Positions 3,731 to 25,600 of a DNA stretch of 38,166 nucleotides are shown piece after piece (the stretch's first letter is position 1; each line of letters starts with the position of its first letter). The notes below the pieces were generated by a model. The model was not told the origin of the DNA, made no database searches, and saw nothing but the letters and a program-made list of their open reading frames with translations. Location of the stretch: the NCBI GenBank assembly GCA_002841685.1, contig PHAM01000010.1, positions 1 through 38,166 of the forward strand, read 5' to 3'. The position numbers and the translations under genes were made by a program. Source of the stretch: Elusimicrobia bacterium HGW-Elusimicrobia-2. GTDB taxonomy: Bacteria > CG03.

Positions 3731-3735
3731 ATTTT

Positions 3736-4500
3736 ATGGATCTAATGACGATTCTGGGCCTTGCTATCGGCGGCGGCGCGATATACATTGTCATGCTCCA
3801 CGGGGATGTTGTCTATCTGCTGTTCAATCTGGACGCCGCCATTCTTGTTTTCGGCGGGACACTGGGCTCCACCATGATAGCTTTCCCTTTTAAAACCATT
3901 GTTCAGCTTCCGCGTGCCGTTAAGCTTATTTTTTTTCCGCCGCCGAAAATTAACATAGGCGGACTTATAAAGGATATGGCTCTTCTTTCGGCCGAGGCGA
4001 AAAAATCGGGGATTATGACGCTCTCGGACGGGAAGCTGAGGACGAAAGATCATTTTCTTTCGGAAAACATAAAAAAAATTGCGAACGGTGTGGAAAAAGA
4101 CATTATTGTCGAGAACATGCGGCAGGAAATCTTTTCCGTGGCCCAGAGGCATGAAAGGGCCTCGGGCGTTCTTCAGGCGATGGCCACTTTTTCTCCGATT
4201 TTCGGGTTGCTGGGTACGCTGATCGGCGTGATCCAGGTGCTAAAAAACCTGCAGGATCCCCAGAGCATGGGCGCCTCAATGGCCATCGCTGTGACGACGA
4301 CTTTTTACGGTATTTTCGGCGCGAATTTTCTTTTTTTGCCGGCATCGCTGAAGCTGGGGGAATATTCGAGAGAGGAAATACTCGCTAAGGAACTTATAGC
4401 CGAAGGGCTGGAATCTGTTCTCAACGGCGAGGTGCCGTCCATAACCACGCGCCGTCTTGACGCCTTCCTGTCAAAGCAGATCCGCGCGAAACAGCAATGA
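3736..4500 (+). CDS. motA: MotA-family stator protein
   Basis: A 254-residue MotA/PomA homologue, normally the five-subunit ring of an ion-driven 5:2 motor. TM1 and TM2 are at residues 3-22 and 31-51 (FNLDAAILVFGGTLGSTMIAFP). A cytoplasmic loop of about 90 residues follows, then TM3 near 146-168 with the family hallmark FSPIFGLLGTLIGVIQVL (Pro154) and TM4 near 178-202 (MAIAVTTTFYGIFGANFLFLP, Pro202). The cytoplasmic loop is the part that touches FliG in flagella. Length is in the usual range. It begins 5 nt after the fusion gene; a GGAGG lies about 10 nt before the ATG. The match is to the MotA rather than the ExbB/TolQ branch. Confidence 0.93.
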   Translation: MDLMTILGLAIGGGAIYIVMLHGDVVYLLFNLDAAILVFGGTLGSTMIAFPFKTIVQLPRAVKLIFFPPPKINIGGLIKDMALLSAEAKKSGIMTLSDGKLRTKDHFLSENIKKIANGVEKDIIVENMRQEIFSVAQRHERASGVLQAMATFSPIFGLLGTLIGVIQVLKNLQDPQSMGASMAIAVTTTFYGIFGANFLFLPASLKLGEYSREEILAKELIAEGLESVLNGEVPSITTRRLDAFLSKQIRAKQQ

Positions 4501-4514
4501 TGGACATGGGGTCA

Positions 4515-4555
4515 ATGGGGACGGTTCCTATTGCTACAATAGTAACCGTCCCCAT
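4515..4555. repeat. Palindromic repeat between motA and motB, copy A
   Basis: Two 19-nt arms, ATGGGGACGGTTCCTATTG and its inverted copy with one mismatch, flank a CTA loop. The same sequence recurs at 9793-9836 and as a half copy at 10443-10461. It fills the gap between the motA stop and the motB start, where it would form a strong RNA hairpin inside the operon transcript. Confidence 0.85.
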
Positions 4556-4570
4556 CCTCATTGATAAGGC

Positions 4571-5239
4571 ATGATATTCCGTCCGATCAAACAAGCCGTG
4601 AAGGAACCTATCTGGCTGACTGTTTTCTGCGATATGACAACCAACCTGATGCTTTTTTTTCTGCTGCTGTACGGTTTCACAAGACTTTCCAAGAGCCGTC
4701 AGCAGGAAATGTATGCCGCGCTGAGCTCGGCGGGGAACAGGGAAAAAATCCTTCAGCGCAAGGCCGACGGCGTGCTGAAAAAATTCGCGGAAGACGAAAC
4801 AAGCTCTAATCTTAAACAAATGATGAGCAGGGGGGATCTGAACAAATACTCAAATCTTGAAACTTCCGAAAGCCAGATAAGGCTTGTTCTGAACACTCCC
4901 GTGCTTTTTGACTCGGGCCGCGCGGAATTGAAGCCCGAAACAAAAGCGTTGTTAAAGGGCATAGCAAGGACATTGTCAATGACATCTTACAAAATAGTGG
5001 TGGAGGGGCACACCGACAATGTGCCGATAAAAAGTCAGGAGTTCAGGTCAAACTGGGAACTTTCTGCGCGCAGAGCGGTGAATGTTATAAATTATTTTGT
5101 CAGCCGCGGCCTGCCGGCTGAGAGGTGCATAGCCGCGGGGTACGGCGAATATTTCCCGCGCTATTCCAATGATGATTTTGCGCAGAGGCAGAAAAACCGC
5201 AGGATAGAAATCGTGCTCCTCAAGGAGGATATAGAGTGA
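4571..5239 (+). CDS. motB: MotB-family stator protein with the ion-binding Asp
   Basis: A 222-residue protein of the usual MotB plan. One transmembrane helix (residues 14-36) carries W15-x5-D21 in WLTVFCDMTTNLMLFF, with Asp21 in the exact place of the proton-binding Asp of E. coli MotB. A linker of about 60 residues follows, then an OmpA-type peptidoglycan-binding domain (residues 100-220) with VLFDSG, VEGHTDNVPI, NWELSARRAVNV and KNRRIEIVL. It should pair with MotA to form the ion channel and anchor the stator to the cell wall. Only a weak AAGG precedes the ATG, and a palindromic repeat lies just upstream. It overlaps the second motB-like gene by 4 nt. Confidence 0.92.
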   Translation: MIFRPIKQAVKEPIWLTVFCDMTTNLMLFFLLLYGFTRLSKSRQQEMYAALSSAGNREKILQRKADGVLKKFAEDETSSNLKQMMSRGDLNKYSNLETSESQIRLVLNTPVLFDSGRAELKPETKALLKGIARTLSMTSYKIVVEGHTDNVPIKSQEFRSNWELSARRAVNVINYFVSRGLPAERCIAAGYGEYFPRYSNDDFAQRQKNRRIEIVLLKEDIE

Positions 5240-5913
5240 GCCGTTTCGTCACCGGCCGTCGGCATGGCGACAGAATGATCGGTGAAAAGAAAAAATTCGA
5301 TCCGTCATCGTGGAAAACGCCTTACGGCACGATGATGCTGCTGTGCATGATTTTTTTTATGATTCTTTATACCATATCGTTAAAGTCGGGCGTTGAATAC
5401 GAGGGGGTTATAGCGAAGCTGCAGTCCGGTGTTTCGCGTGAAAAGCACTCCGCCGGGGATGTTGAGACGGCCGAGAAAATGGAGGAAATATTCGGTTCCG
5501 AAAAAGGCGTCATTCAGATGGACGCGAGGAAAATAAAGATAATGCTGGACAGCCCCGTGCTTTTTGACTCGGGTTCCGCCGAACTTAAAGAAAGCAGTCG
5601 CGATGTCCTCTTTAAAGTTGCGCAGGTGCTCAGGGAAACGCGCAACAAGGTGAATGTCGCCGGCCACACGGACGACATTCCTTTCTGGGCTCTCCCCGGC
5701 GGTAATTTTGAGCTCTCAACTCTGCGTGCATTTAATGTGATCAGGTATTTTATAGATGTTGAGAAAATACCGCCGGCACGATTTTCCGCCTATGGTTTCG
5801 GCGAACACAGTCCTGTCGCGCCGAACACCGACAGCGCCGGCCGCAGCCGCAACAGGCGCATAGAGATCAGCATCCTGCGTGAAACGGCCCGAAGAGAAGG
5901 CGCGAAAACCTGA
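5236..5913 (+). CDS. Second MotB-like protein lacking the ion-binding Asp
   Basis: A 225-residue MotB paralogue starting with GTG, in a 4-nt overlap with motB and with AAGGAGG 7 nt upstream. The transmembrane helix WKTPYGTMMLLCMIFFMILY aligns without gaps to E. coli MotB [20 protein letters not shown], and the position of the essential Asp is Thr. The rest of the family plan is intact: VLFDSGSAELKESSRDVLF, VAGHTDDIPF, NFELSTLRAFNVIRYF and SRNRRIEISIL in the OmpA-type peptidoglycan-binding domain (about residues 92-218). The protein can probably bind peptidoglycan but should not conduct ions alone. A role as the second, non-conducting B subunit of a mixed stator, or as a passive anchor, is inference. 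Confidence 0.88.
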   Translation: MSRFVTGRRHGDRMIGEKKKFDPSSWKTPYGTMMLLCMIFFMILYTISLKSGVEYEGVIAKLQSGVSREKHSAGDVETAEKMEEIFGSEKGVIQMDARKIKIMLDSPVLFDSGSAELKESSRDVLFKVAQVLRETRNKVNVAGHTDDIPFWALPGGNFELSTLRAFNVIRYFIDVEKIPPARFSAYGFGEHSPVAPNTDSAGRSRNRRIEISILRETARREGAKT

Positions 5914-5914
5914 T

Positions 5915-6781
5915 ATGAGGATTTTCTTTATTTCCGCCGCCGTGTTTTTGGCCTCCGTTTCCTTATGCCCAGGGGCTGATGATATAGGCGCGCTGTATAA
6001 TTCCGCCGTGAAAAATTTCAGCGCGGGCAAATACAGCGACGCGATCAGGTGCTGGCAGAGGATACTTGAGATAGATCCCGAACAGGTGCCCCCGCATAAA
6101 ATGATAGAATTCACGAGAGGCAAGATAAAGCAGGAGCTCGCGCCGCGGGTGCAGGCCTTTGAAAAAAATATGCAGGCCGGAAAATGGTTCATCGCCCATG
6201 ACGCCGCGTGCAGGGTGCTGGATATCGACCCGGCATATCCGGGCCTCGCCGAAAAAAAAGACAAACTCGGTGAAATAGCCGGTATCGTCGAAGATTGTTC
6301 GGGCTCCGGCAAGGTGCCGGTCATGCTGAGAAAAAGCGTCAACGCTTATTTTGATAAAAATCCCGCGCTTATGTTTGACGCGGCCATATATGCCGAACAG
6401 TTAAATAAGGATATTGCCCTCGGCAAGAAAATTTCCGCACTGCTATTTTACATGGAAAAAAAATACCCCGAGGCAAGATCCCGCGTTAAGCTGATAGCGG
6501 GCATGGATCTGATGAAACAGATGCTCCAGAGCTCGCTTGATTCTATTTACAAAGCCGATTACACCGGCGCGATCATGTTTTGTGACAGGATTCTCGCGCT
6601 TGATGAAAACAGCACTCTCGCCCTTATGAGAAAAGGTTCGGCGTATTACGCGCTCAACAATTTTAATGAGGCGCGTAAAAACTGGCAGCTGGCGCTTAAA
6701 ACAGATCCTAAAAATAAAGATGTGAAAAAATTTCTGAATCTGCTGGATAGAAAAAAGAAAAAAAACGGCGGAAAAAAATAG
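5915..6781 (+). CDS. Secreted TPR-repeat protein
   Basis: A 288-residue protein with a signal peptide (MRIFFISAAVFLASVSLCPG, then ADD) followed by tetratricopeptide-like helices: NSAVKNFSAGKYSDAIRCW near the start, a divergent middle part, and two clear C-terminal repeats (DSIYKADYTGAIMFCDRIL and YYALNNFNEARKNWQLALK) before a Lys-rich tail. I chose ATG 5915, which starts 1 nt after the stop of the second motB-like gene and gives a normal signal peptide; an upstream GTG at 5879 in the same frame would add 12 charged residues. TPR proteins are scaffolds. Here a periplasmic scaffold between the stator domains and the outer membrane is plausible but not proven. Confidence 0.8.
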   Translation: MRIFFISAAVFLASVSLCPGADDIGALYNSAVKNFSAGKYSDAIRCWQRILEIDPEQVPPHKMIEFTRGKIKQELAPRVQAFEKNMQAGKWFIAHDAACRVLDIDPAYPGLAEKKDKLGEIAGIVEDCSGSGKVPVMLRKSVNAYFDKNPALMFDAAIYAEQLNKDIALGKKISALLFYMEKKYPEARSRVKLIAGMDLMKQMLQSSLDSIYKADYTGAIMFCDRILALDENSTLALMRKGSAYYALNNFNEARKNWQLALKTDPKNKDVKKFLNLLDRKKKKNGGKK

Positions 6782-9912: not shown

Positions 9913-10302
9913 ATGAAAACTAAAAAAGTGCTGATTGTGGACGATGACCCCGGTATCAGAACCATGAACGGTTTTACGCTCATGCGCGAAGGTTTTGATG
10001 TTGCTTATGAATCGGAGGGCCCGTCGGCGCTGGCGAGGCTTTATCAGGAGGATTTTGACCTGGTGCTGCTGGATCTGCGGCTTCCGTATTTGAGCGGAGA
10101 TCATATCATGAAACTGCTGAAGGACAAGGATAGGATCCCGGCAAAAGTCCTGATTATATCGGGGCTCCCGGGAGAAGTGATAGCGTCAACCGCCGAGCGT
10201 TACGGCGCCGCGGGCTATCTGGAAAAACCTTATACGCCGCAGGAACTTGTAAAAAAAGTCGCGGAACTTTTTAGCGGTTCAGGCGAGTTGGCCGCAGAGT
10301 AA
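9913..10302 (+). CDS. Single-domain response regulator (CheY/Spo0F-like receiver)
   Basis: A 129-residue protein that is one receiver domain without an output domain. The acidic pocket D10-D11-D12, phosphoacceptor Asp54 (LVLLDLRLPYLSG), Ser83 in the place of the conserved Thr/Ser, and Lys105 (LEKPYTP) are all present. It would be phosphorylated by a histidine kinase encoded elsewhere and act through protein-protein contact. There is no Shine-Dalgarno sequence, and the -10 box ends 5 nt before the ATG, so the mRNA is probably leaderless. It lies between the motor-like operon and the surface-protein region. A link to the motor, as CheY has to FliM, is tempting but nothing in the sequence proves it. 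Confidence 0.9.
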   Translation: MKTKKVLIVDDDPGIRTMNGFTLMREGFDVAYESEGPSALARLYQEDFDLVLLDLRLPYLSGDHIMKLLKDKDRIPAKVLIISGLPGEVIASTAERYGAAGYLEKPYTPQELVKKVAELFSGSGELAAE

Positions 10303-10342
10303 AATTAAGATTTAGCGCGGTTTTTGCGTGCTGCCGGATTTT

Positions 10343-10386
10343 GTGACTAAAAGCACGTTGACAAAACCTTGCGGTCATTGTAGAAT
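10343..10386 (+). promoter_or_regulatory. Promoter with a CRP/FNR-like site upstream of the surface-protein operon
   Basis: GTGA-N6-GCAC (10343-10356), then TTGACA (10358-10363), a 17-nt spacer and TAGAAT (10381-10386). The distance from GTGA to the -35 is 15 nt, the same as in the promoter at 9864, and the GCCGGA upstream is also shared. The start near 10393 leaves a leader of about 90 nt before the small gene at 10484. Confidence 0.7.
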
Positions 10387-10442
10387 TTAGCAGTATTTGA
10401 GAGAAAGTAATTTGTTTGCTTGTTTGCAAAAAGGTGAAAAGA

Positions 10443-10461
10443 ATTGGAACCGTCCCTATTG
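10443..10461. repeat. Half copy of the palindromic repeat
   Basis: ATTGGAACCGTCCCTATTG corresponds to one arm of the repeats at 4515 and 9793. It lies in the leader just before the Shine-Dalgarno sequence of the next gene. Confidence 0.6.
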
Positions 10462-10483
10462 AAAACGGGAGGAGGTGCAGTCA

Positions 10484-10705
10484 ATGGCAATACAGTTAGT
10501 AAAAGCGGAGTTTAAGGCGGAAACAGACGGGAGTGTAAAAGTTGAATTAAAACTGTCGGGCGCAAAACCCGGAATGGTTTGTGAACCTGATAACCCTGAA
10601 GCGCCGCAATCGATTCAGGTTCGCGTAACAGTTGTTCAGCCGAATAACGGCGGTTTTGATTCAGGCGTCTTATATCTAACCTCGCCGGGGAAGATAGAGT
10701 TTTGA
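10484..10705 (+). CDS. Small hypothetical protein at the head of the surface-protein operon
   Basis: A 73-residue protein, mostly beta-strand in appearance (LVKAEFKAETDGSVKVELKLSG; IQVRVTVVQ), with no signal peptide and one Cys. The start is ATG 10484, placed 8 nt after AGGAGG; an upstream in-frame GTG lies inside that Shine-Dalgarno sequence and cannot be the start. I do not recognise the family. It follows a strong promoter with a CRP-like site and precedes the secreted 964-residue protein by 23 nt. Confidence 0.65.
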   Translation: MAIQLVKAEFKAETDGSVKVELKLSGAKPGMVCEPDNPEAPQSIQVRVTVVQPNNGGFDSGVLYLTSPGKIEF

Positions 10706-10728
10706 TGTTATGTGAGTATGGGAGTTAA

Positions 10729-13623
10729 ATGAAAAAAAACATTTTATCAGCGTTGTTGTTTTTTCTGCTGGCGATAAATTCATCTCAGGCAGCGTTGGTT
10801 TATGTTGGGTCCACTACATTTAACGGTTCTGCAAACGGTTTCGATATGGGCCGCGGTATTGTTTACCGCAACCAGAGCAGCGAACTTTTTGTTACAGGGG
10901 CTTCTTCTACTACAGGCGAAGGCAGAAATATATGGCTCGGCAGGTTTGATGCGCCCGCATCCGATACGCCGCCTACCCTTCTTGACAGTATTTCAATAAC
11001 AGGTAATCCCGCGGCATCTACCGATGATGGTTACGGAATATCAATTCATCCTTCAAACGGCGACCTGTATGTTACAGGCCGGATATACAACAGTCCCAAT
11101 AACCTTGATGGATATATTGCGCGATATACGCCGTCGCTTACTTTAGTTTCTTCAGTCACTTTTACAGGCGCTTACGGCGCTGATAGCGACGAAGATTTCT
11201 GCCAGTCATCATCTTATGATTCCGCCGGTAATGTTTATGTGGCGGGCACGGTTGAGCAATCGCTCGGTGAAAATGATATCTTTGTAGGAAAATATAGCGC
11301 CAATCTGGGACTTATCACTTCAGCGCTTTTCGACGGCCCCGGTGGTATCGGAGACGGTGATTTAGGTTATGGGGTATGGGTTGATAAAGTCGCCGATATT
11401 GTATATGTTTGCGGTAGAAGCGGCAATAGCGATGGCGGTGAGATAATCGTATATAAATTGAATTCTTCCCTGACATTTATTTCTTCAACGACATTGAACG
11501 GTTCGGCAACTAGCAGTAGTGATTGCGCGATGGCTATCACAGGTAATCCCGCCACACAGAATTTGTATGTTGCAGGTTATGTGGAGCAAACAACAACCGG
11601 ATTGGATATATGGATTGGGAAATACGATTTTAACCTTAATTTACTTTCTTCAACCACAATTGACTACGCAAATTTCGGTGATGAGGCAAGGGGTATAACC
11701 ACATGGGGGACAGATATTGTTGTATCCGGCTACACAGGAATTACGGCAACCGATAGAGCGATGTGGGTAGGAAGATATAACCAGAACCTTGTCCTATTAT
11801 CCAGTCATACATTTAATCCTAATACAACCAATGATGAAAATTATGATGTCGCCATAGATATCGCCGCAAACAAGGTTTATACTGTCGGTGGTGTTCCTAC
11901 AAACCAGAACGATATCGCAATTCTTAAATACGCAGATTCCCCTGCAGGCGATACAACTCCGCCCGCGGCAATATCAAATCTTACTGCCCTCGTCGGCGGC
12001 AGTGCGGGTGAGATACAACTTAAATGGACGGCGCCGGGCGACGACGGGACGACGGGCGGAAGCGCTTCGTCTTACGAAGTGAGATACGCCACGAAATATA
12101 TTGGTACAGCCGATTATAACGCGAGCTGGACTTCCGCGTATTCACAGTCGTGGGGCCCTGCCGCTCCAGGTTCGCAGGAACCGCCGATACTGGCGGGATT
12201 CAGCGAAGGCGTAACTTACTGGTTCGCGATAAAGGCAACTGACGATGCTAGTAATCAAGCGAGTTGGACTTCGTCGGGAACGGTCTCATCGGTAAATACT
12301 TTAAACAGCGCATACGCAAAATCAGATTCAAATTTGCTTCCTTCAATAAAAGGACAGTGGCACTACGGGTTTGAAGGAATAACTTTACTAGACGATCCAA
12401 TATGGGAAGAGATAGGTACGGCAAGCGGGATTGACAGCGTCGGCGCGACGGTTCACAGCGGCATCCGGGATTGCTGTCTGGAAAATCTTACAACGGCATA
12501 TTCAGGACGGACAATTTATTCGGCAACCTGCACGGTGACGGCGGGACAGGGTTATTACGGGGGAATTTGGGCTTATGTCTTTACTAACGGAGGCACGGAT
12601 GTCAAAGATGTCAGTTTTAAGCTGGCTGTACGGTGGTATAATTCTTCGGACGCTTTCATATCGGAATCATCGTCGGAAGGCATAAAGCTGTCGGCGTATG
12701 ATACTTGGGAAAAGATAATATATTCTACGGTGACGGCTCCGGCGGGTGCGACACAGGCGCGGTTTGTTGTTGCCGCGCTGGAAACGGTTGCTCTGGATTA
12801 CGATCCGTGTATTGATGACGCTGAGTTTATTGTGGCGGAAGGCGTAACCGGAGATATTACTCCCCCGTCGGCGGTGACGGATTTGTCGGCGGCAACGGGA
12901 ACTAATGAGGGAGAGATTGATTTGACTTGGTCAGCGCCGGGTGATGACGGGATGACGGGGACAATAAGTTCGGGCGAGTTCCGCATAAAATATTCTTCAA
13001 AAACGGATGCGTCCGATAAAGGCGGCTGGGTTTATACGAGTAATTATGTGAGCAGTTCATGCGCAAACATTATTCCGTCCTCGTCATACGGCCGCACAAT
13101 TACAGGGTTGACGGCGGGGGCTACATATTATTTCAGGATCTGGACGGCGGATGAGGTGCCGAACTGGTCGGGTATTTCAAACGGAGCGATCGCACAGGCG
13201 GGCATTTTTTCGGCGGACATAACGGAAATTTCATTTAATTTCGGGCAGATTTTTCCGGGTAATAGCGCGGTGTCTCTTTCGAGCGCGACTGTGACAAATA
13301 CCGGAAATACCAATGCGACTTATGAGATAAAATTATCGACGCCGCCGAACTGGAGCGCGGGAACGGCGCCTGCCGCCGACCAGTTTGTTTTTTATGTGAT
13401 ATTCAGTTCGACACAGCCGACAGCGGGCAGTTTCGGAGCGGAGGATATTTTAAGCACGGCGACGGTGAGCTGCACCACGACTGTTTTTGCGGGAGACGAA
13501 AACGGCGTCAGCGTTCCGTCGGGAGCGAAGCGCGGAATGTGGGCGTATTTTAAGGCGCCGACCGCGACAAGCGTTGAAACGCAGCAGGGAATTGTTGTGA
13601 CGCTCACGCCAAAAAAACCATGA
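10729..13623 (+). CDS. Secreted beta-propeller/FN3 surface protein (964 aa)
   Basis: A signal peptide (residues 1-21, ending SSQA) leads into about 380 residues of propeller-like repeats of SBBP type (units such as DSAGNVYVAGTVEQSLGEND followed by IFVGKYSANLGLITSA). Then come an FN3 domain (about 410-525, with the WTAPGDDGTTGG loop), a region of about 150 residues resembling a carbohydrate-binding jelly-roll (545-705), a second FN3 (710-825), and a final beta domain ending GMWAYFKAPTATSVETQQGI. No sorting domain of the kind seen on the 4085-residue protein is present. The second FN3 is nearly identical to the one at the start of that protein. The stop overlaps the start of the next gene (ATGA), coupling a toxin-antitoxin gene to a surface protein. 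Confidence 0.85.
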   Translation: MKKNILSALLFFLLAINSSQAALVYVGSTTFNGSANGFDMGRGIVYRNQSSELFVTGASSTTGEGRNIWLGRFDAPASDTPPTLLDSISITGNPAASTDDGYGISIHPSNGDLYVTGRIYNSPNNLDGYIARYTPSLTLVSSVTFTGAYGADSDEDFCQSSSYDSAGNVYVAGTVEQSLGENDIFVGKYSANLGLITSALFDGPGGIGDGDLGYGVWVDKVADIVYVCGRSGNSDGGEIIVYKLNSSLTFISSTTLNGSATSSSDCAMAITGNPATQNLYVAGYVEQTTTGLDIWIGKYDFNLNLLSSTTIDYANFGDEARGITTWGTDIVVSGYTGITATDRAMWVGRYNQNLVLLSSHTFNPNTTNDENYDVAIDIAANKVYTVGGVPTNQNDIAILKYADSPAGDTTPPAAISNLTALVGGSAGEIQLKWTAPGDDGTTGGSASSYEVRYATKYIGTADYNASWTSAYSQSWGPAAPGSQEPPILAGFSEGVTYWFAIKATDDASNQASWTSSGTVSSVNTLNSAYAKSDSNLLPSIKGQWHYGFEGITLLDDPIWEEIGTASGIDSVGATVHSGIRDCCLENLTTAYSGRTIYSATCTVTAGQGYYGGIWAYVFTNGGTDVKDVSFKLAVRWYNSSDAFISESSSEGIKLSAYDTWEKIIYSTVTAPAGATQARFVVAALETVALDYDPCIDDAEFIVAEGVTGDITPPSAVTDLSAATGTNEGEIDLTWSAPGDDGMTGTISSGEFRIKYSSKTDASDKGGWVYTSNYVSSSCANIIPSSSYGRTITGLTAGATYYFRIWTADEVPNWSGISNGAIAQAGIFSADITEISFNFGQIFPGNSAVSLSSATVTNTGNTNATYEIKLSTPPNWSAGTAPAADQFVFYVIFSSTQPTAGSFGAEDILSTATVSCTTTVFAGDENGVSVPSGAKRGMWAYFKAPTATSVETQQGIVVTLTPKKP
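12863..13203 (+). repeat. FN3-domain duplication, copy 1
   Basis: The DNA for the second FN3 of the 964-residue protein is repeated with high similarity at 16742-17083. Long blocks such as GGGACAATAAGTTC and GAGTAATTATGT are shared. The two copies flank the whole toxin-antitoxin cluster in direct orientation. Confidence 0.9.
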
Positions 13624-14462
13624 AAAATTTAGAGAAGAAAATAGAATTGCTGAAAGATTATTTTTCAAAAGAGCAGTCGGTGATTATGGCCTATGTTTTT
13701 GGTTCTTATGCCAAAGAGAGAGTTATGTCTGAATCGGATTTTGATGTTGCTGTTTATTTCAAGCCGCAAGACAGGGAAATAGAATACGAGAAAGATAGGG
13801 AATATCCGGAAGAGGACAGAATCTGGAGCGATGTTGAAAGAATTGTCGAGGTAAACACGGACTTTGTTGTTATGAACAGATGCCCCGCCACCCTCGCTCT
13901 GGAAATTCTTGAGATAGGGAAAAAGATTATTGTCAAAGATGAAGAGCTCCGTCTTGAATTCTATCTCATCACAAGTTCCGTCGCGATGGACTTTATGGAA
14001 TTTGCGAGGGATTTCTATGCGATCAGGCAGCGTTCCGCATCATTAAGCGAACGGGATAAACACAATTTAATGAGGAGAAAAGTTTTTCTGGAAAATGAAA
14101 TAGGCGAAATTGATTATTTTAAAGATTTGGATTTTAAAACTTACAGTACGGATAGGAACAAAAGGAGAATTGTAGAGAGGTGGATTGAAGTTATAGTTGC
14201 CGCATCAATTGATATTGCTAAAATAATGCTCGCCTCGGAAAAAAAAGAAATTCCCAAAACTTATAATGATACGCTGAAAATGTTCGGGTGGATGGTTGGA
14301 TTTGAAGGGGACTTAAATGAGAAATTTTCTAAATTTGCGGATTTAAGAAATATCTTAGCGCATGAATATCTGGATATTTTGTTTGTGAGAATAAAAAAAT
14401 TCATTGACGAAGCGAAGCCGATTTACAGGGAATTGATTGATTTTGTGGATAAAAAAATATGA
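13620..14462 (+). CDS. Fused MntA-like nucleotidyltransferase and HepT-like HEPN protein, copy 1
   Basis: A 280-residue protein combining both halves of a type VII toxin-antitoxin system. The N-terminal MNT nucleotidyltransferase has G28-S29 followed by ten residues and D40-x-D42 (GSYAKERVMSESDFD), the GSX10DXD motif of the antitoxin MntA. The C-terminal HEPN domain has R243-N-I-L-A-H248-E-Y250, the RX4HXY motif of the RNase toxin HepT. In known systems MntA adds AMP to the HepT Tyr and blocks the RNase; here both are one chain, so modification could be intramolecular. The start ATG overlaps the stop of the surface-protein gene by 3 nt. A paralogue of the same length lies at 15043. Other possibility: a self-regulating defence RNase rather than a plasmid-type addiction module. 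Confidence 0.8.
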   Translation: MKNLEKKIELLKDYFSKEQSVIMAYVFGSYAKERVMSESDFDVAVYFKPQDREIEYEKDREYPEEDRIWSDVERIVEVNTDFVVMNRCPATLALEILEIGKKIIVKDEELRLEFYLITSSVAMDFMEFARDFYAIRQRSASLSERDKHNLMRRKVFLENEIGEIDYFKDLDFKTYSTDRNKRRIVERWIEVIVAASIDIAKIMLASEKKEIPKTYNDTLKMFGWMVGFEGDLNEKFSKFADLRNILAHEYLDILFVRIKKFIDEAKPIYRELIDFVDKKI

Positions 14463-14475
14463 AAAGGATAATAGG

Positions 14476-14742
14476 ATGATATCAAAAACTGATAAAAATG
14501 TAATTATAGAATGCGCAAAAAAGTATAGTGTAGGAGAAATCATTCTATTCGGTTCTTCCGTTGATAGTGAAACTGCAAATGATATTGATATCGGCATAAA
14601 AGGAATTCAACCGGAGTTGTTCTTTCAGTTTTATGGTGAATTATCGAGAAATTTATCTAAAGAAGTTGATGTAATAGACCTGGATGAAAAAAATTCTTTC
14701 AATAAGCTGGTAGAAAGAGATGGAGTAAAATTATATGGATAG
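14476..14742 (+). CDS. Stand-alone MNT nucleotidyltransferase (antitoxin-like)
   Basis: An 88-residue minimal nucleotidyltransferase with the core FGSSVDSETANDIDIGI: G26-S27 and, after eight residues instead of ten, D36-x-D38. The C-terminal strand VDVIDLDE carries the third acidic position. I chose ATG 14476, which follows an AAAGGA; an upstream in-frame TTG would run into the preceding coding region. Its stop overlaps the start of a broken ORF where the HEPN partner of such genes normally sits. Confidence 0.75.
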   Translation: MISKTDKNVIIECAKKYSVGEIILFGSSVDSETANDIDIGIKGIQPELFFQFYGELSRNLSKEVDVIDLDEKNSFNKLVERDGVKLYG

Positions 14743-14929
14743 TTTGATAGAAAAAATCAACGCTGAAATGGAAAACATATTTGTCGTGTATTCGGCATTT
14801 GAAAAAGAAATAGCCCGGATTATTCACAATGTATGTCATTCCGAAGGAGTTTTTACGACTGAGAAATCTAAGATTCCTCACTTCGTTCGGAATGACAGAC
14901 CGTTGTTTTTGTCCTCGGAGTATGAATAA
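14735..14929 (+). pseudogene. Remnant of a HEPN-type partner gene, interrupted by a palindromic repeat
   Basis: The frame starts with ATG inside the end of the MNT gene, the usual arrangement for a HEPN partner. The first 32 residues (MDSLIEKINAEMENIFVVYS...) look like the first helix of such a protein. From 14834 the sequence is a 64-bp inverted-repeat element, translated as CHSEGVFTTEKSKIPHFVRNDR, and the frame ends soon after. No HEPN active-site motif remains. The assignment to HEPN rests on position and on the first helix only. Confidence 0.5.
14834..14897. repeat. 64-bp MITE-like inverted-repeat element
   Basis: TGTCATTCCGAA at the left end and TTCGGAATGACA at the right end are perfect 12-bp terminal inverted repeats. 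The interior holds AATCTAAGATT. It resembles the widely dispersed TGTCATTC palindromes found in many bacterial genomes; a related half element lies at 16664-16691. No target-site duplication is obvious. Confidence 0.8.
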
Positions 14930-15042
14930 TGCAGGATAGGTAATTTTCTTAAAGGATTATGATAAAGAAACGTAAATTTTTAACTGCTTGCCCCGCTGGC
15001 TCCGCCGCAGGCGATAACGGTGACAATGGAACCGATAAAGCC

Positions 15043-15885
15043 ATGATGGATTTGGATGAAAAAATAAAATTGCTGAAAGATTATTTTTCAAAAGAACCGT
15101 CGGTTGAGATGGCTTATGTTTTCGGCTCTTATGCCAAAGACAGAGTTATGTCGGAATCGGATTTTGATATTGCGGTTTATTTCAAACCGGAAGGCAGGGA
15201 AATAGAATACGAAAAAGTCAGGGAATACCCGGACGAAGACAGAATATGGGCTGATGTTGATAAAATTACGGGCATTAACACCGACCTTGTTGTAATGAAC
15301 AGGTGTCCTTCCACCCTTGCTTTTGAAATTTTGCAGACGGGGAAAGAGATTATTGTGAAAGACGAAGGCCTCCGGCTTGAATTCTATCTCATTGCAAGTT
15401 CCGTTGCGGAAGATTTTAGAGGGTTTGTTAAGGATTTCTGGGCGATTGAGCAAAGGTCGGCATCTTTAAGCGAACAAGATAGAGTCAAGCTCATCAAGCG
15501 CGCGGAATTTCTCAATAGAGAATTGATGCTTTATTCTATCTTCAAAGATTTGAATTTTAAAGGGTATAGCGATGACAGAATTAAACAGTTGAGCGTAGAA
15601 AGATGGATTGAAAATATCGCAAACGCATCAATTGATATTGCGAAAATCGTTCTCTCTTCCGATAAAAAGAAAATGCCCGAAACATACAAAGAAACTCTGA
15701 AACTTTTTGGAGTTTTGTATGATTTTGGGGAAGAAAAAACAGAAAAATTGGCAGAATTTGCCGGTTTGAGAAATTTTCTGGCGCACGAATATCTTGATAT
15801 CCGCTTTGAGAAGATTAAAAGATTTATCGCCGCCGCCGAACCTCTTTATAGGGAACTAATTGAATTTGTGAATAAGAAAATATGA
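15043..15885 (+). CDS. Fused MntA-like nucleotidyltransferase and HepT-like HEPN protein, copy 2
   Basis: A 280-residue paralogue of the protein at 13620, similar over its whole length. It keeps GSYAKDRVMSESDFD (GSX10DXD) in the MNT half and R243-NFLA-H248-E-Y250 (RX4HXY) in the HEPN half, so both active sites appear intact. I chose ATG 15043 because it gives exactly the length and N-terminus of copy 1 (MMDLDEKIKLLKDYF against MKNLEKKIELLKDYF). An earlier ATG at 14959 would add 28 residues (TACPAGSAAGDNGDNG...) with no counterpart, although an AAAGGA stands close to it. The stop overlaps the next MNT gene (ATGA). Confidence 0.8.
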   Translation: MMDLDEKIKLLKDYFSKEPSVEMAYVFGSYAKDRVMSESDFDIAVYFKPEGREIEYEKVREYPDEDRIWADVDKITGINTDLVVMNRCPSTLAFEILQTGKEIIVKDEGLRLEFYLIASSVAEDFRGFVKDFWAIEQRSASLSEQDRVKLIKRAEFLNRELMLYSIFKDLNFKGYSDDRIKQLSVERWIENIANASIDIAKIVLSSDKKKMPETYKETLKLFGVLYDFGEEKTEKLAEFAGLRNFLAHEYLDIRFEKIKRFIAAAEPLYRELIEFVNKKI

Positions 15886-16232
15886 AAAATTTGAATGAAT
15901 TCCTAACAGAAAAAGAAAAACGAGCGGTGGAAGAATTGAAACAAGGGCTTAAAAAACTTTACGGGGATAATCTCGCGCGTTTAATTCTCTACGGTTCGAA
16001 AGCGAGGGGCGATTCCGAAGACGGTTCGGATATTGATATTTTAGTGGCGCTGAAAAAAATGGGTTTGCGATTTGACGAAATTGACCGAATAGGCGAAATT
16101 CGCGCCCCGATTTGTCTTAAGTACAACATAACTCTTTCCGTTATGCCTGTGTTGGAGGAGTGGATTGACGCAGATTATAAGACAATATTTGTTCACAATG
16201 TTTTAAATGAGGGAGTGAGGATAAATATATGA
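15882..16232 (+). CDS. MNT nucleotidyltransferase of a two-gene MNT-HEPN module
   Basis: A 116-residue nucleotidyltransferase with LYGSKARGDSEDGSDIDILV: G38-S39 and, after ten residues, D50-x-D52. The C-terminal part (ITLSVMPVLEEWIDADYKTIF) supplies the last strand of the fold. It starts within the stop codon of the preceding gene and overlaps the following HEPN gene by 4 nt, the classic order for an antitoxin-type MNT before its HEPN partner. Confidence 0.85.
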   Translation: MKNLNEFLTEKEKRAVEELKQGLKKLYGDNLARLILYGSKARGDSEDGSDIDILVALKKMGLRFDEIDRIGEIRAPICLKYNITLSVMPVLEEWIDADYKTIFVHNVLNEGVRINI

Positions 16233-16621
16233 CGGCGCAGAACGAAATAAAAGGATTAATTGCAAAGGCACAGAGGAGACTGAATTCTGCCGGAGATGAA
16301 TTTCAGAAAGAGAATTATGATTTTGCGGTTTCCCACGCATACTATTCAATGTTCTACTGCGCGGAAGCGCTGCTTCTTACTAAAGAGTTGAGATTTTCAA
16401 AACATTCCGCCGTTCATTCCGCTTTTGGAGAACATTTTGCTAAAAACGGTGAAATCGATCCGAAATTACACAGGAAGTTGCTGGATGCGTTTGAAAAAAG
16501 AAGTAATGGTGACTATGAATACATGATTGAAATAACAAAAGAAGAAGCGGAGAAAATTCTAAGAGACGCAGAGTTTTTTGTAGGCGAAATAAAGAAGAAA
16601 TTAAATGAAAAAAATTTGTAA
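16229..16621 (+). CDS. HEPN-domain protein, partner of the upstream MNT
   Basis: A 130-residue all-alpha protein of the HEPN family: RLNSAGDEFQKENYDFAVSHAYYSMFYCAEALL (residues 17-49) followed by the conserved RSNGDYEY near residues 91-98 and a long C-terminal helix. The sequence is of the common MNT-partner type. A strict RX4-6H motif is not visible, so RNase activity is less certain than for the two fused proteins. It overlaps the MNT gene by 4 nt, and its last 17 nt overlap the start of the giant surface-protein gene. Confidence 0.8.
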   Translation: MTAQNEIKGLIAKAQRRLNSAGDEFQKENYDFAVSHAYYSMFYCAEALLLTKELRFSKHSAVHSAFGEHFAKNGEIDPKLHRKLLDAFEKRSNGDYEYMIEITKEEAEKILRDAEFFVGEIKKKLNEKNL

Positions 16622-19600
16622 ATCTTTGCCTGGTGTAGCAAGCGTAATAGCGGCAATCTCACTTGTCATTCTGAGCGGAGCGAAGAATCTCGCCTTCGCC
16701 GCGACGAGCGATTCAATAACTTATTACGTAACGGTGAGTTCACCTCCGGCGGCAGTGACGGATTTGGCGGGGGCGACGGGAACGAACGAAGGCGAGATTG
16801 ATTTAACGTGGTCTGCCCCCGGTGACGACGGGCTGACGGGGACAATAAGTTCTGGTGAGTTTCGAATAAAATTTTCTTCAAAAACGGATGCGTCTGATAA
16901 AGGCGGCTGGGATTACACGAGTAATTATGTAAGCAGTTCATGCGCAAACATTATTCCGTCTTCGTCATACGGCTACACAATTACCGGCCTTGTCGCGGGG
17001 GCTACTTACTATTTTAGGATTTGGACAGCGGATGAAGTACCGAACTGGTCAACTCTTTCAAACGGAGCGACCGCGCAGGCGCAGGTTGCTCAGGGCGGGA
17101 TTTGGAAGAGTGTTCAGGGCGGGAACTGGGGTGCGGGCGCAACTTGGGATAAAGGAAACGTTCCTAATTCACTAAGTGTTGTTGAGATTTCCCACACCGT
17201 AACATTTGATATGTTTGATGCGGAATGTTCCAGCGTTACTGTTTTTAATTTTGGGACTTTGCAGTTTGACGGGGCGGTTTCCACAAGAACCCTGACGGTA
17301 GCAGGAAACCTTGAAATAATGAACGGCGGAAATTTTCTGATGCCGCCGAATACCGGTTACATTTCAACGCTGAAGATTAAATGCGACACTGACGGAGAGC
17401 ATGGGATTATCGTAAATAACGGCGGGATATTTGATGTTCGGGGAAATACCACAACAACGCCGTCCACGAGAAACTGCTTGATTGCATCAGACAATCCATC
17501 CGCAAAAACATACATCCAAAACCTTTCACAGACCGAAGCTAATTTCAATATGTATTATGTGGAAGTAAGCAGCGTGGGAGTGAATGCTGATGGAAAATGG
17601 GGAATAACTTTTTATGGTTCACCGATAAGAGGAAAAATAAATTATTGCAGCATTCATAATGGGTATTATGGTATTTACATTTGGGGTAGTTCCAACAATA
17701 CAATAAGCAATAACAATTGTTATTCAAATTCTTTTAGTGGCATTTACCTTAACGGCAGTTCCAACAACATACTCAACAATAACAGTTGCTACTCAAATAC
17801 TCAAAGTGGCATTTACCTTGGCAACAGTTCCAACAACAACACACTCAGCAATAACAGTTGTTACTCAAATACTCAACCTGGCATTTTGCTTAACGCCAGT
17901 TCCAATAACAACACGGTGAGCAATAATAATTGTTATTCTAATGCTGTGGACGGTATTTATCTTGACACAGTTGAGGACAATACACTGAATAATAACAATT
18001 GTTACTCAAATTCTGGAAATGGCATTGATGTATTCACTTGTGTTGACAATATCCTGGGCAATAATAATTGTTATTCTAATTTGAACGGTATTCGTTTTAA
18101 AGACAGTGAGAACAATACACTGAATAATAACAGTTGCTACTCAAATTCCCAATATGGCATTTTAGCATCAGCCGATGATATTCTCAATAATTTAATTGTA
18201 AATTGCAATTTAGGGAAAGATGGAATTAACACGAGTGGAGATATTGGTTATTATAATACTGGTGGTGGTGCTCCAAAACTAATCTTAAAAAATTGTAATT
18301 TATATTCCACAACGAAAGTTAATCCGACAAATATGTACGACGGGTCTCTTGTTTCGTATAATCAGGACGGGACACAGGGTACAACAAAAATATGGGGTGA
18401 TTATAAAATTGAAAACGGCGAAACGGGGAAATTTAATTATGCTGACTTGCTTTATGCCTCAACAGCTACATTGCCGAATTCTACTTTGAAAGGTTCAGGT
18501 TCAATAACATATCCGACGACAAATGATAGTCAAACGCTGACTGAATTTTGGGAAGTAAAATATAACGGTTCAAGTTTTGATGTCCGCAGAGGAACGTGGG
18601 CGGTTCTGGATTATGATGGTGATGCGACAGTCGGTTCGCCATATTCAGGTTCACCGAGAGGCGTAGGTTTTACAGTGAGCGGCACATTTCAACTGAATGA
18701 TGCATTTTATTTTGTGACAATTTCATCGTCGGGTGATCAAAATACTCAGAAGATAATTGAGTTCAGTAGTTCAACAATCGGCACAAAATTGAGTGTTGAT
18801 TCCGGCGGAACGATTCAGATGATAGGAACACTGGGTTATCCCACTATATCCACGGCTTCGGCGAGCGGCGTGTATTACGGTTTTGCGTCTTCCGGAACAA
18901 TGGAAGCGAGTAACTATAAGTTTTTCAATCTCAATTCGGAAGGCCTGAAGTTTCAGTCCGCCGGTGCTGATGTTGTGGATTTGAGCAGCGGAACTTTTGA
19001 TAACATTCAGGACAGCGCCGGTGATTCAAGTTATATCTGCGTGTTATATCTGACATCCGCCGCTACATGGTACAACTGCACATTCAACGACACTCCGGGG
19101 ACGGCGGATTATAATGTTAAGGCGGACGGATCGGGAGTAAACTGGACATTCAGAGATTATGACGGCGTAAAAAGCGGCGTAACTTACAGTTCCGCGACAA
19201 ACGGAGCTGTTATATACTGGGTTGTTCCGGACGCGACCCCGCCGACGGTCGGGATAATAACCCCGACAGATGATTCCTATGTGAACAGTTTGTCCCAGAT
19301 AGAGGGAACTTCAGATGATGATGTTAGCGTGAGCACGGTGATGGTAAGTATGCAGAGATTGAGCGACAAATGGTACTGGTCGCCGGGGCCGCAATGGGCG
19401 GTTGGAGAGACGTGGAATGGGGTAAACAGTTTTGTCGCTTCAACGTGGACGCTGACTTCACTGCCGGGCTGGGTGGACGGTTCAAGTTATACGGTCGTTG
19501 CAAAAGCGCAGGATACAAGCGGCAACTGGTCGCAGGTTTATTCAACGGTGACGTTTACTTATGATAATTCCGCGCCGGTATCATCGGCGACATATCCTGT

Positions 19601-22600
19601 AAACGGCGGGCATTATGTTGATGTGGACTCAATCACGGGGACGGCCACGGACGATGTTTCGGGAGTGAATGAGGTCAACATCCAATTAAAGAGGCAGGCG
19701 GATAATAAATACTGGGACGCCGTGGGTTCATTGTGGACATTCAGCGCGATATGGAGCACCGCCACAGAAACGACGAACTGGAGTTTTAACGCAATCCCGG
19801 TCATCTGGTCAACCGGCAGCTATAGTGTTCAATCAAGGGCGAAGGATGCTGCGGGAAATTGGGAGACCCCGACAAGTTCAACAACATTTAGTATTGGATA
19901 TTCAACTCCGGCCGCGCCGACGGGATTCGCGGGGACAGCACAGTCGGCAGTGTCAATAAAATGGTCATGGAATGATGTAAATGAAGAAGACGGATATTAT
20001 GTCAGGGATTCATCGGGGGCTCTGAAGCAAACTCTTTCCGCGAATGTGACTTCGTGGTTGGAAACGACGGGGTTAACGGTCAATACCTCACATCAAAGAT
20101 ACGTGGAAGCTTATAATGCGAGCGGTTCAAGTAAATGCGCGGCAATAATCAGATACACATTGGCAACTACTCATTCGGGATTATATTTTAGCGGCGGCGG
20201 GGGTTCAAGTGTGACTTTTGCATGGAACGTAAATACTAATCCGTCATGGACGAGATGGGGAATATATAAATCAACGGACGGTTTTATAACGAGCACGGCA
20301 ACTCTAAAGAATTTTGCGGCGAATTATACAAGCAGTACTTATACTGATACCGGGTTGACTGACTTAACAACCTACTGGTATAAGGTACAGGCGTTTAATG
20401 GTGACGGGATAGGTTCCACTTTCAATAATATCATATCAACGAAAACTCCGGACGAAACTCCTCCGACAGTCGGAATAACAAAACCGGCTTCAACTTATGT
20501 CAATAGTTTAGGGCAGATTGAGGGAACCGCGGCGGATAACGGGGGAATAAACTATGTTAATGTTGAAATCAGAAGAAACTCGGATGGTTATTATTTTGAT
20601 TCAGCGACATGGGGAACGCAGACATGGCTGGGGGTGAGTGTTTTTACGAGCTCATGGACATATTCGGATCCTGACCTCTCCTGGATTAACAGGTCAAGTT
20701 ACACCATAACAGCGCGGGCCTGTGACACAGCTCTTATATATTCCGCGACGACAACAGTGACGTTTACTTATGATATAGATTTGCCGACTTCGGCGGTGAC
20801 ACATCCTGCCGAGAGCGGCAAGTACGATTCTATCACGCAGATAACGGGAACTTCCGCGGAGGCGACATCCGCGATAAATGCGGTAGATATAAGTGTAAGG
20901 AGAACATTAGGCAACGAATATTGGGACGGGTCATCATGGGTCGACGGCCAGCAATGGCTTACGGCACTGGCTGCTGACGGCACTTACGACACTCTGACGG
21001 AGAACTGGAAATTTGATATAGAGTATTCTACAGACGTGTTTTCATCGACGGGGCAATATGTGGTTTCATCGCGGGCGCAGGATTCCGCTCTGAACTATGA
21101 GCCCTTAATATCGTCAGTGACATTTGAAATAGTGTTTTCAACACCTCCGTCAGTCGGTGGAATTCAGGGAGATGCCGTTTCAACAGACAGCATTAACTGG
21201 TCGTGGAGCGATATAGTGGAGGAAGACAATTACAGGATTAAGAGCGCCACAGGGGGGATTTTGAAAGACGCTCTTCTCGCGGACACGACATTCTGGCTGG
21301 AAACCGGACTGACCGCAAATACGACGTACCAAAGATATATTGAGGCGTATAATACAATCGGTTTCAGCGCGGCCGCGACGTCTATCATTTATACATTGGC
21401 GAATGCGCCTTCGGGTTCTGATTTTAGCGCAGTATATAAAACAAGCGCAACGGTGACGTGGTCGTCAAACGGCAACCCTGCGTTGACAGGATATATTGTG
21501 GAGTGCGATTCAACGACGCCGTATGATTTTGTGTCTGTTGATTTAACAAGCGGCTGGATAGATGTAACGACGCACACATTCACAGGGCTGACAAACGATA
21601 CGAGCTATTATTTTAAAGTGAAGGCGAGAAACGGCGGTTTAACGGAAACAGGATTTGATTCAATAATATCTACAGTTACGGTTTATGATGATAAGGTTGT
21701 TCCCACTTTAGGAATAACCAAACCGCTTGACGGTTCGTATACAAATAGTGTGCCTCAAATACAGGGCACATGTGCCGACGATGTGGCGGTTTCGACGGCT
21801 GCGATAAGAATTTTTAATCAGATAAACGCGAATTACTGGAATAACAATACGACGATTTGGGATGCTACGCTAACGCCTGAAACTGCCTGGTTCGCGCCAA
21901 CGCTTTCGGCCGGCGGGACATTCTGGTGGTTTAATTCTCCGGGCTGGGCGGACACAAAGGTTTATGAAATCAGCGCAAAGGCGAAGGATACGGCCGGCAA
22001 CTGGTCAGCGGTTTTTTCAACGGCTGTTTTTACCTACGATGTCACGAAGCCGGCTTCTGCCGTGAGCGTTCCGGAAAACGGAATGAAACTCGCCACATTG
22101 ACAAGTCTCGGCGGCACGGCAGCGGATGCAACATCCGGAATTTCGCAGGTTAAAATTCAAATCACGGATCTGACGCAGGGAGCGACATACTGGAACGGCA
22201 GCGGTTGGGTGGAAACTTCCGCGTGGCTCCCCGTAAGCGGGGTCGACCCCTGGTCGTACAGCTTTGTTGACGGCGACTGGACTGAAGGGCATGTTTATAA
22301 AATACAGTCTCAGGCGACGGACACCGCGGCCAATGTGGAGTCCGCCGTAAACGCGAGTACATTCACCTTCAGCAATGCCGGAATCAAACTGCAGGTTATT
22401 CTGCCAGGCGAGACGGCGACTTCCGGTATGTCTCCGGGGAAGAGCGGCACGCCGACCGCGCAGATGGCCGGAGTGGCTTTCAGCGTAACTGTCAACGCCG
22501 TTGACGATTTGTGGAATCTTTCGGTGAATGCGATTGCGACAGCGCAGGTAACGACAAGCGACCCGAACGATACGGAGCCGTCATCGTCGGCGCTGGTAAG

Positions 22601-25600
22601 CGGAACGAAAGTTTTTTCTGTAACGATGGTGACCGCGGGAACAGCGACGATAACGGCAAGTGACACTGATGGAACGCCTCTTTTGCCGGAGACAAGTTCT
22701 GAAGTTAATGTAAATGCTAATGCTCCGTCGAAACTTCAGGTTATTGTTCCCGGAGAGGCCGCCGCCGCAGGCACGGGCGGTGGAAAAATGGGTACGCCCG
22801 ATGTTCAATATGCGGGAGCTGTTTTCACGGTGACGATCCACGCCTGCGATGCATATTGGAATGTTGTTTCAACGACTGCGACGGTAAATGTAACGACAAG
22901 CGATAATGCTGATACCGATCCCGGTAATATAGTTCTTCCGGCGGGCACGAATAATGTTAATGTAACGCTCGTGACACCGAGTACGAGTACGTTTATAACA
23001 GCCACGGCTGCCAGTTTTGCGGACGGTGTGTCGGTTTATATTGTGGTAAGTTCTACGGATGTGGTGCCGCCGACGGTGGGAATAACTGCACCAGCAGTCC
23101 TTTACACCAATAGCGTAATAAAAATAGCGGGTACGGCGAACGATAATGTGAAAGTTAGTTCTGTAACATTGTGGGTAGAAAGATTGAGCGATAATTTTGT
23201 CTGGACCGGCGCAGGCTGGAGCGGAGCAGGCCTATGGTTACCCGCGGACAATGTTTATGTCTCATCTTGGTCATACACAACCGCTGTTTCGTGGGATGAC
23301 GGTATCTCTTATGATATTATCGCGAAAGCAAAAGACAGCAACGATAACTGGTCAACGGTTTATGACACGGTGACGTTTACTTATGATATTTCTCTGCCGA
23401 CTTCGACGGTAACATATCCTGTGGAGAGCGGTCAGTATACGGATATTACGAGCATTACGGGAACTTCTACGGACACCGTTTCGGGAGTGTCGGTGACAAA
23501 AATAAAAATATTCGCATTGTCCGGGCCGTACATAGGCGCGTGGTGGCAGGATGGTTCAGGATGGCAGGGAGCTGAATTCTGGAATGACGCATCCGGTACA
23601 GCTTCGTGGAGTTTTGACACCTCAATGATAGGATGGTCGACAGGGACTTATAATGTTCAGCCGAAAGTTCAGGATGCGGCAGGCAACTGGGAAGTGCCGG
23701 TAAGTTCGGTGACATTTGAAATCATTCCTTCCACGCCTCCGGCCCCGGCGGGATTTCATGGCGAAGGGCCGGAGCTTACGTCTATGTGGTGGCGCTGGAC
23801 GGATAATTCAGACAATGAAGACGGTTTCAGAGTTAAGAGCGATACGGGGGGAATACTTGCGGATTTACTCCCGGGCGCAACCGAGTGGCATGAAGACGGC
23901 TTGAGTCCCAACACATCATATTTCAGATACGTTGAAGCGTATAACGTCAGCGGTTCAAGCGCGAGTGAAATTGCGATGAAATCCACTTTGCCGTATCAGC
24001 CGGCTTCATTACAGATTACGCAGGTATCATCAACAACGGTTACTATAACATGGTCCGCAAGCGGCAACCCCTCGTTTACAAAGTATATTGTTGAATGCGA
24101 CGGGACAAATCCCTATGATTTTGAACCGCCCGATAACGGTTACGGTAATTCCGTATTGACAACGACACACACTTTCACAAATTTAACGGCCGCGACGACA
24201 TATTATTTTCAAATAGGGGCTATGAGCTTGGACGGAGATGTAATAGTTTATTCCGCAACTGTTTCGACAATGACAGCGGATGCGGAAAGTTTTGTCGCTT
24301 CATGGAGTTCCCCTGAAATGGAATTAACCATGGATACAGCCTGGGGTGACTATGATAATGATGGAGACTTGGATCAACTCGTAGGAAATGCTGTGGGGGT
24401 AAACCGTATCTACAGAAATGAAGGAGACGGGACATTCACAATGGCCTGGAGTTCTCCTGAAAGTGAAGATACCCTGAGTGTGGCCTGGGGGGATTATGAC
24501 AATGACGGTGACTTAGACCAATTAGCGGGGAATGACGGAAGTAACAGGGTATATAGAAATAACGGCGATGGAACATTTACAATGATGTGGGTTTCGGTGG
24601 AAACGGAAAAAACATATTCAGTAGAATGGGGTGATTACGACAACGACGGCTATCTTGACCATGTAGCGGGGAATTATGGAGTTAACAGGGTTTACAGAAA
24701 TAACGGTGATGGGACATTTACGTTAGCATGGAGTTCAGCAGAATCAGATGACCACCGGAGTGTTAAATGGGGCGACTACGACAATGACGGCGACCTTGAC
24801 CAGTTGGTCGGAATTAACGGAGCGCAGCGCACCAGAGTATACAGAAATAATGGCGACGGGACATTTACATTGACATGGGAATCGACAGTAACTGACGCTA
24901 CCGTGAGTGTTGCGTGGGGCGATTATGACAACGATGGTGATTTAGATCAACTGGCAGGAAATGAGAATGAGGCAAATAAGGTATATAGAAACGATGGAGG
25001 CGGAACGTTTACACTGGCGTGGACTTCAGCAGAAACAGAAAATACAGGAAGTGTTTCATGGGGTGATTACGACAATGACGGTGATTTAGACCAGTTAGTT
25101 GGTAATGTTGGTCAAACAAACCGGATATACAGGAACGATGGAGATGACACATTTATTGCTGTCTGGAACTCGGCAGAGACAGAAGATACTCGTAGTGTTA
25201 CATGGGGTGATTATGACAATGATGGTGATTTAGACCAGTTAGCAGGGAATTATGGTCAAACAAACCGCATTTACAAATCTCTTGAAGCGGATTCAGGGAA
25301 TGCTAATACGGCGCCGGCAGCTCCGTCGGCTGGATTTTCGGCAAATTATAATTCAGCAACGGAAGAAATTGAGTTCCGGTGGGACAAATCAACAGATGCG
25401 GAAACTCCGCAGAACGGGCTTTATTATGCGATTAACATTGATACGGGCGGGATAAATTACACACTTTGGGACGAAGTGATAATGGGTGAAAAGCATACAA
25501 CAGCGAACTTTGGCAAATATATGCACAGTTATATATCCTCAACAACGGTACAACCAGGTTTTAATCTTAAAATAACAACAGCGTTGCCAACAGGGGTTAC

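Follow-up and report, generated by a model that had tools for sequence, protein, structure and literature searches.

A probable laterally acquired HEPN/MNT toxin–antitoxin array, including single-chain MntA-HepT proteins, within a variable surface-protein operon of an Elusimicrobia bacterium

Genes and signals at the locus

The DNA analysed here (the window, 38,166 nucleotides) is contig 48 of the 1.78-Mb draft genome (94 contigs) of Elusimicrobia bacterium HGW-Elusimicrobia-2, which we call G000; two of its genus relatives are referred to as G002 and G003. Between the genes for two surface proteins lies a cluster made up of two single-chain fusions of MNT and HepT domains, a decayed pair of MNT and HEPN genes and an MNT-HEPN pair of the ordinary kind, all on the same strand as both flanking genes (Table 1). 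The start of the second fusion was set at 15043 rather than at 14959 by alignment to homologues. The HEPN stub of the decayed pair gave no Pfam match above the cut-off, and it ends in a palindromic short repeat at about 14834-14902. The ordinary pair consists of an MNT domain followed by a HEPN domain (PF05168 and PF01909; 71.6 and 35.0 bits, above the cut-offs in each case). Its HEPN protein carries R-x3-D-Y where the canonical RNase motif Rx4-6H would be expected, and a conserved histidine lies elsewhere; in the PF05168 HEPN-T family the histidine is replaced by aspartate in several cases (PMC3710099). The pair resembles the HEPN-T and MNT proteins of PDB entries 9xbd and 9xbc, matching both chains of 9xbd (E values of 7e-11 and 2e-20) at moderate identity; our literature search found no publication on 9xbd.

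Table 1. Coordinates of the genes and sequence features in and around the cluster
Feature	Position	Strand	Remarks
Response-regulator gene	9913-10302	+	
Best sigma-70-like promoter match, TTGACA-17-TAGAAT	10358-10386	+	Upstream of surface operon; 11/12; consensus match only
Small gene	10484-10705	+	Upstream of 964-aa gene
964-aa secreted protein	10729-13623	+	Signal peptide, delta-60-like repeats, fn3 domains
fn3 direct repeat, left copy	12850-13200	+	Near C-terminus of 964-aa protein
Fused MntA-HepT protein 1, 280 aa	13620-14462	+	GSX10DXD at residues 28-42, RX4HXY at 243-250
MNT remnant of decayed split pair	14476-14742	+	101-aa open frame listed from 14437
HEPN stub, 64 aa	14735-14929	+	Presumed dead toxin; HEPN identity inferred from position and length
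Fused MntA-HepT protein 2, 280 aa	15043-15885	+	308 aa listed from upstream ATG
MNT antitoxin-like nucleotidyltransferase, 116 aa	15882-16232	+	PF01909; GSX10DXD
HEPN protein, 130 aa	16229-16621	+	PF05168 (HEPN-T type)
4085-aa giant surface protein	16605-28862	+	Signal peptide, beta-helix, fn3, FG-GAP, C-terminal type IX-like region
Short repeat TGTCATTCTGAGCGGAGCGAAGAATCTC	16664-16691	+	Within giant's signal peptide (LVILSGAKNL); single close copy in genome
fn3 direct repeat, right copy	16731-17081	+	First fn3 of the giant protein

At its C-terminus (window 27000-28859) the giant protein weakly matches models of type IX secretion proteins (PorZ and PorU). In another part of the window, at 2366-5913, genes for a FliG-like protein, a MotA/ExbB protein and two MotB/OmpA proteins follow one another consecutively.

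The original prediction drew attention to the way in which the cluster genes run into one another and into their neighbours, and most of that description holds. The stop codon of the 964-aa gene overlaps the first cluster gene by 4 nt (ATGA, 13620-13623), the last HEPN gene overlaps the start of the giant gene by 17 nt (16605-16621), and there are further 4-nt overlaps at 15882 and 16229. The last of these is the predicted overlap of an MNT gene with its HEPN gene; the same claim fails for the first and third modules, which are single fused proteins. As a baseline we took 20 contigs of the same genome, picked by number and regardless of content (about 250 kb), and called genes with a simple caller of our own. 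In this sample 72 of 154 same-strand junctions overlapped (47%), 34 of them by exactly 4 nt (22% of all junctions) and 30 by 5 to 60 nt; across the whole window 10 of 24 junctions do so. Overlaps such as those bordering the cluster are therefore normal here and reflect the generally tight packing of this genome, and with so overlap-rich a baseline we rejected them as a sign of special coupling.

Also as predicted, there is no good promoter at the borders of the cluster. The sole strong sigma-70-like match in 10300-17300 lies in front of the surface operon (Table 1), and promoter-like matches as a whole are near chance (18 found, 13.2 ± 4.4 expected). The ribosome-binding sites tell a different story from the overlaps. 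Pairing with the anti-Shine-Dalgarno sequence yields duplex energies of +1.5, −2.2 and −2.3 kcal/mol at the starts at 13620, 15882 and 16605, and the first of these has no Shine-Dalgarno match. Such weak sites are unusual for the genome: among the overlapping starts sampled, 82-85% do better than −2.5 kcal/mol and no more than 15-18% are weaker. They are compatible with re-initiation, or with low expression. Since the weak ribosome-binding sites accompany the overlaps, which by themselves are ordinary here, co-transcription and coupled translation of the cluster with the surface operon are plausible but unproven.

Single-chain MntA-HepT proteins

Each fusion is one continuous frame in which a Polbeta domain precedes a HepT-like domain (Pfam), and both fusions pass the 60-bit cut-offs of the NCBIfam MntA and HepT models (65.2 and 62.7 bits for NF047751, 63.4 and 70.8 bits for NF047752). 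The two copies are 67% identical, with intact catalytic motifs in both; RX4HXY reads R243-NILA-H248-E-Y250 in copy 1 and RNFLAHEY in copy 2. Comparison of the copies gave dN 0.23 and dS 1.27 (dN/dS of about 0.18), and both appear to be under purifying selection. AlphaFold modelled the fused protein with a pLDDT of 91 and a pTM of 0.86, and one half of the predicted structure matches crystal structures of MntA and the other half those of HepT.

A scan of genome contigs returned 55 related loci, in about 30 of which the fused frame is full-length and 35-49% identical, from Omnitrophota, Nitrospirota, Patescibacteria, Spirochaetes and others. The motif GSX10DXD (G28, S29 ... D40, D42) is invariant in 27 sequences; in RX4HXY the histidine and tyrosine are invariant and the arginine is at least 90% conserved, and over 31 aligned sequences conservation is at least 90% for the residues of both motifs. 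Neighbouring genes were inspected at 30 loci; they are unrelated from one locus to the next and mostly housekeeping-like, as far as names can be read from the sequences. Judged in the same way, a Patescibacteria (Tagabacteria) locus has the fused gene between an apparent ftsA and ftsZ (L051, around 4941-6134). One of the 30 adjoins an MNT-HEPN pair. The fused gene was looked for on phages, viruses and plasmids and found on none, the sole plasmid matches being two distant split pairs on haloarchaeal plasmids.

A close characterised parallel is the type VII (class I HEPN/MNT) HepT/MntA system SO_3166/SO_3165 of Shewanella oneidensis, which shares with the window fusions the GSX10DXD and RX4HXY motifs, the MNT-first order and both folds. 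In this family the RX4HXY tyrosine is AMPylated by the MNT protein and the RNase is thereby kept off (PMC7641770; PMC11586414). Whereas the Shewanella system is encoded by two genes, the separate genes that characterise type VII are replaced in the window by a single 280-codon frame with a helical stretch bridging the domains, and likewise in about 30 homologues. We propose that the fusions are a single-chain variant of type VII HepT/MntA that works like the rest of the family, with putative toxicity and AMPylation. HEPN-M domains are occasionally fused to MNT, and such fusions typically lack the RNase residues (Anantharaman et al., 2013; PMC3710099). The window proteins have the same domain pair in one chain, but their family conserves those residues: judged by the alignment, HepT in these fusions has retained both the RNase residues and the AMPylation target throughout the family, in contrast to most MNT-HEPN fusions that have been described. 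A limited literature search found no description of a fused, active MNT-HEPN family. With PADLOC, no characterised anti-phage system matched the locus; the best matches were the candidate-system families PDC-S09 and PDC-M05, with a few others weak.

Most MNT-HEPN fusions have been proposed to be domesticated enzymes, that is, nucleotidyltransferases whose HEPN part binds the substrate and which are no longer toxins. The typical loss of RNase residues from MNT-fused HEPN domains (PMC3710099) would favour the same reading here, as would the presence of kanamycin nucleotidyltransferase-like folds amongst the weaker structural matches. R243, H248 and Y250 are nevertheless kept in nearly all homologues, and both NCBIfam cut-offs, set for equivalogs, are passed, so that domestication looks improbable for the window proteins.

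Genus relatives and a second giant-gene locus

The five parts of the cluster have a G+C content of 35.0-39.5%, against 48.7% for the sampled genome (gene mean 48.7%, SD 4.3), which suggests acquisition, and the cluster has probably been acquired laterally. None of three genus relatives has the fused protein: at an E value of 0.001 one gave only a distant match to the HepT half and the other two gave none. G002 and G003 both have the surface locus, with the fused gene nowhere in either assembly. In G003 the flanking proteins are 96-97% identical to those of the window, and the same response-regulator gene is followed by a different surface gene, although contigs break in this region and the locus is only partly visible. 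G002 has one surface gene in which stretches resembling window 11950-12297 and window 17078-17967 lie just 17 nt apart, and the intervening 4.8 kb that holds the cluster is absent; the locus therefore exists without the cluster. G+C content and distribution suggest gain in G000, as opposed to loss elsewhere.

The cluster is flanked by two direct repeats of fn3 sequence, 86% identical over 300 nt, 3881 bp apart and in the same codon phase (Table 1), so the interval between them could be removed by recombination. Simple excision between these repeats was considered as the origin of the G002 arrangement and rejected: it would have left window 12298-12850 in place, and G002 lacks that stretch. On the right, the G002 breakpoint does coincide with the end of an fn3 repeat. 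Of the other repeats, the REP-like repeat TGTCATTCTGAGCGG has one close copy in the genome and is unsupported as an insertion agent in the window. The dispersed repeat GGAACCGTCCCC, AAT(A/T)GGAACCGTCCCCATT, has 24 near-copies in G000, against none for a reversed control pattern; it occurs in the window at 4514, 9818 and 10442, the last two upstream of the operon. This candidate was also set aside, for although the repeat lies near the second giant-gene locus too, it is widespread elsewhere in the genome.

In-frame repeats on either side of several stacked MNT/HEPN genes are what might be expected if the cluster were an addiction module protecting the surface region against deletion between the two 86% identical copies. 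Recombination between them would, however, delete the cluster and yet spare most of both surface genes. Moreover, a fused toxin–antitoxin has no separate antitoxin to decay, so that classical post-segregational killing does not follow; one pair has already decayed; and at another surface gene, near the second giant-gene locus described below, the MNT-HepT pair that precedes it in G002 and G003 is reduced to the MNT gene in G000 (L144, G000:C14, 6664-8023), the HepT having gone and the small surface gene having stayed. We consider addiction very unlikely.

Elsewhere in G000, on contig 75 (L112, 13750-16824), an MNT-HEPN pair, an ORF6N gene, HicBA and two further ORF6N genes precede a 4132-aa surface gene, which the last of them overlaps by 4 nt. 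On contig 160 of G003 (L113, 18857-19306) the same pair runs directly into a 2831-aa surface gene, again with an overlap of 4 nt, and on contig 189 of G002 HicBA and two ORF6N genes come before a 3334-aa gene (L115, 1-1650). The 4-nt overlap of cargo and giant gene is found in three genomes, and the layouts show that the cargo at this position differs between close relatives. In G000, a stretch resembling the beginning of G003's giant gene can still be read right after the HEPN gene, with ORF6N immediately following, and in G002 a leader of 25-30 nt is duplicated, preceding both the last ORF6N gene and the giant gene. MNT and HEPN genes also occur as a pair within a secreted-protein operon (contig 27) and in ordinary contexts (contigs 15, 16 and 57), the latter counting against any general rule.

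These arrangements bear on two further proposals. In the first, the 5′ ends of giant surface genes in this genus would be landing sites: toxin–antitoxin or ORF6N genes would insert at the signal-peptide region, the start codon would be rebuilt or duplicated so as to overlap, and the cargo would become hard to lose once translation of the giant depended on it. We think this unlikely. In the second, the cluster regulates the giant gene, its translation being required for that of the giant and so coupling toxin–antitoxin state to surface display. The 17-nt overlap with a weak Shine-Dalgarno sequence at 16605, and the 4-nt overlaps at the second locus in three genomes, are in keeping with such control. 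On the other side, overlapping genes are the norm in this genome, the surface locus occurs in relatives that lack the cluster, and the gene directly upstream at the second locus varies (HEPN in G003, ORF6N in G000 and G002), which means that no one kind of cargo is required. Of the eight G000 surface genes whose 5′ side can be read, six lack such cargo immediately upstream, although eight genes cannot carry a statistical claim and the comparison was post hoc. Regulation of the giant gene by the cluster is accordingly an unlikely explanation.

A probable toxin–antitoxin array hosted by surface genes

We consider it likely that 13620-16621 is a laterally acquired HEPN/MNT toxin–antitoxin array inside a variable surface-protein operon, with the surface proteins as its hosts and not its partners. 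The comparison of relatives suggested with the original prediction turned up both surface genes without toxins and toxins without surface genes, and a partnership is unlikely for that reason; the toxins and the surface proteins probably do not work together. Three roles had been put forward for the cluster. Neither guarding of the surface region nor control of the giant protein finds support: G002 and G003 have the surface locus in the absence of the fused gene, fused homologues elsewhere stand alone, and at the second giant-gene locus unrelated cargo (HicBA, ORF6N) occupies the same position. The third, a defence or toxin–antitoxin unit carried in an accessory locus, fits best of the three, with the defence role argued by analogy. 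A precedent is the lysine operon of Thermus thermophilus HB8, where an MNT-HEPN module is inserted in one strain and not in another (PMC2701414). There, as in the window, a module sits inside an unrelated operon in one relative only, but the window differs in having several stacked modules, placed between giant surface genes.

By analogy with the families to which they belong, each HepT domain would be an RNase, switched off by AMPylation of its RX4HXY tyrosine by the MNT domain. The fused chain would hold both the writer and its target, so that the toxin would be made already paired with its inhibitor, and only a trigger, for instance phage attack or ATP depletion, would release it. The cluster probably shares the transcript of the surface operon. 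Three genes (the first fusion, the last MNT gene and the giant gene) have a weak ribosome-binding site next to an upstream stop, and their translation may depend on re-initiation. Joint transcription, translational coupling, AMPylation inside the fused chain and a role in defence or stress are all steps that we infer. At the second locus, differing cargo and a readable older leader in close relatives make the route by which such genes enter operons open to examination. A single-chain family with both active sites preserved would amount to a compact RNase held in check by its own inhibitor, and would be useful for understanding how HEPN toxins are released.
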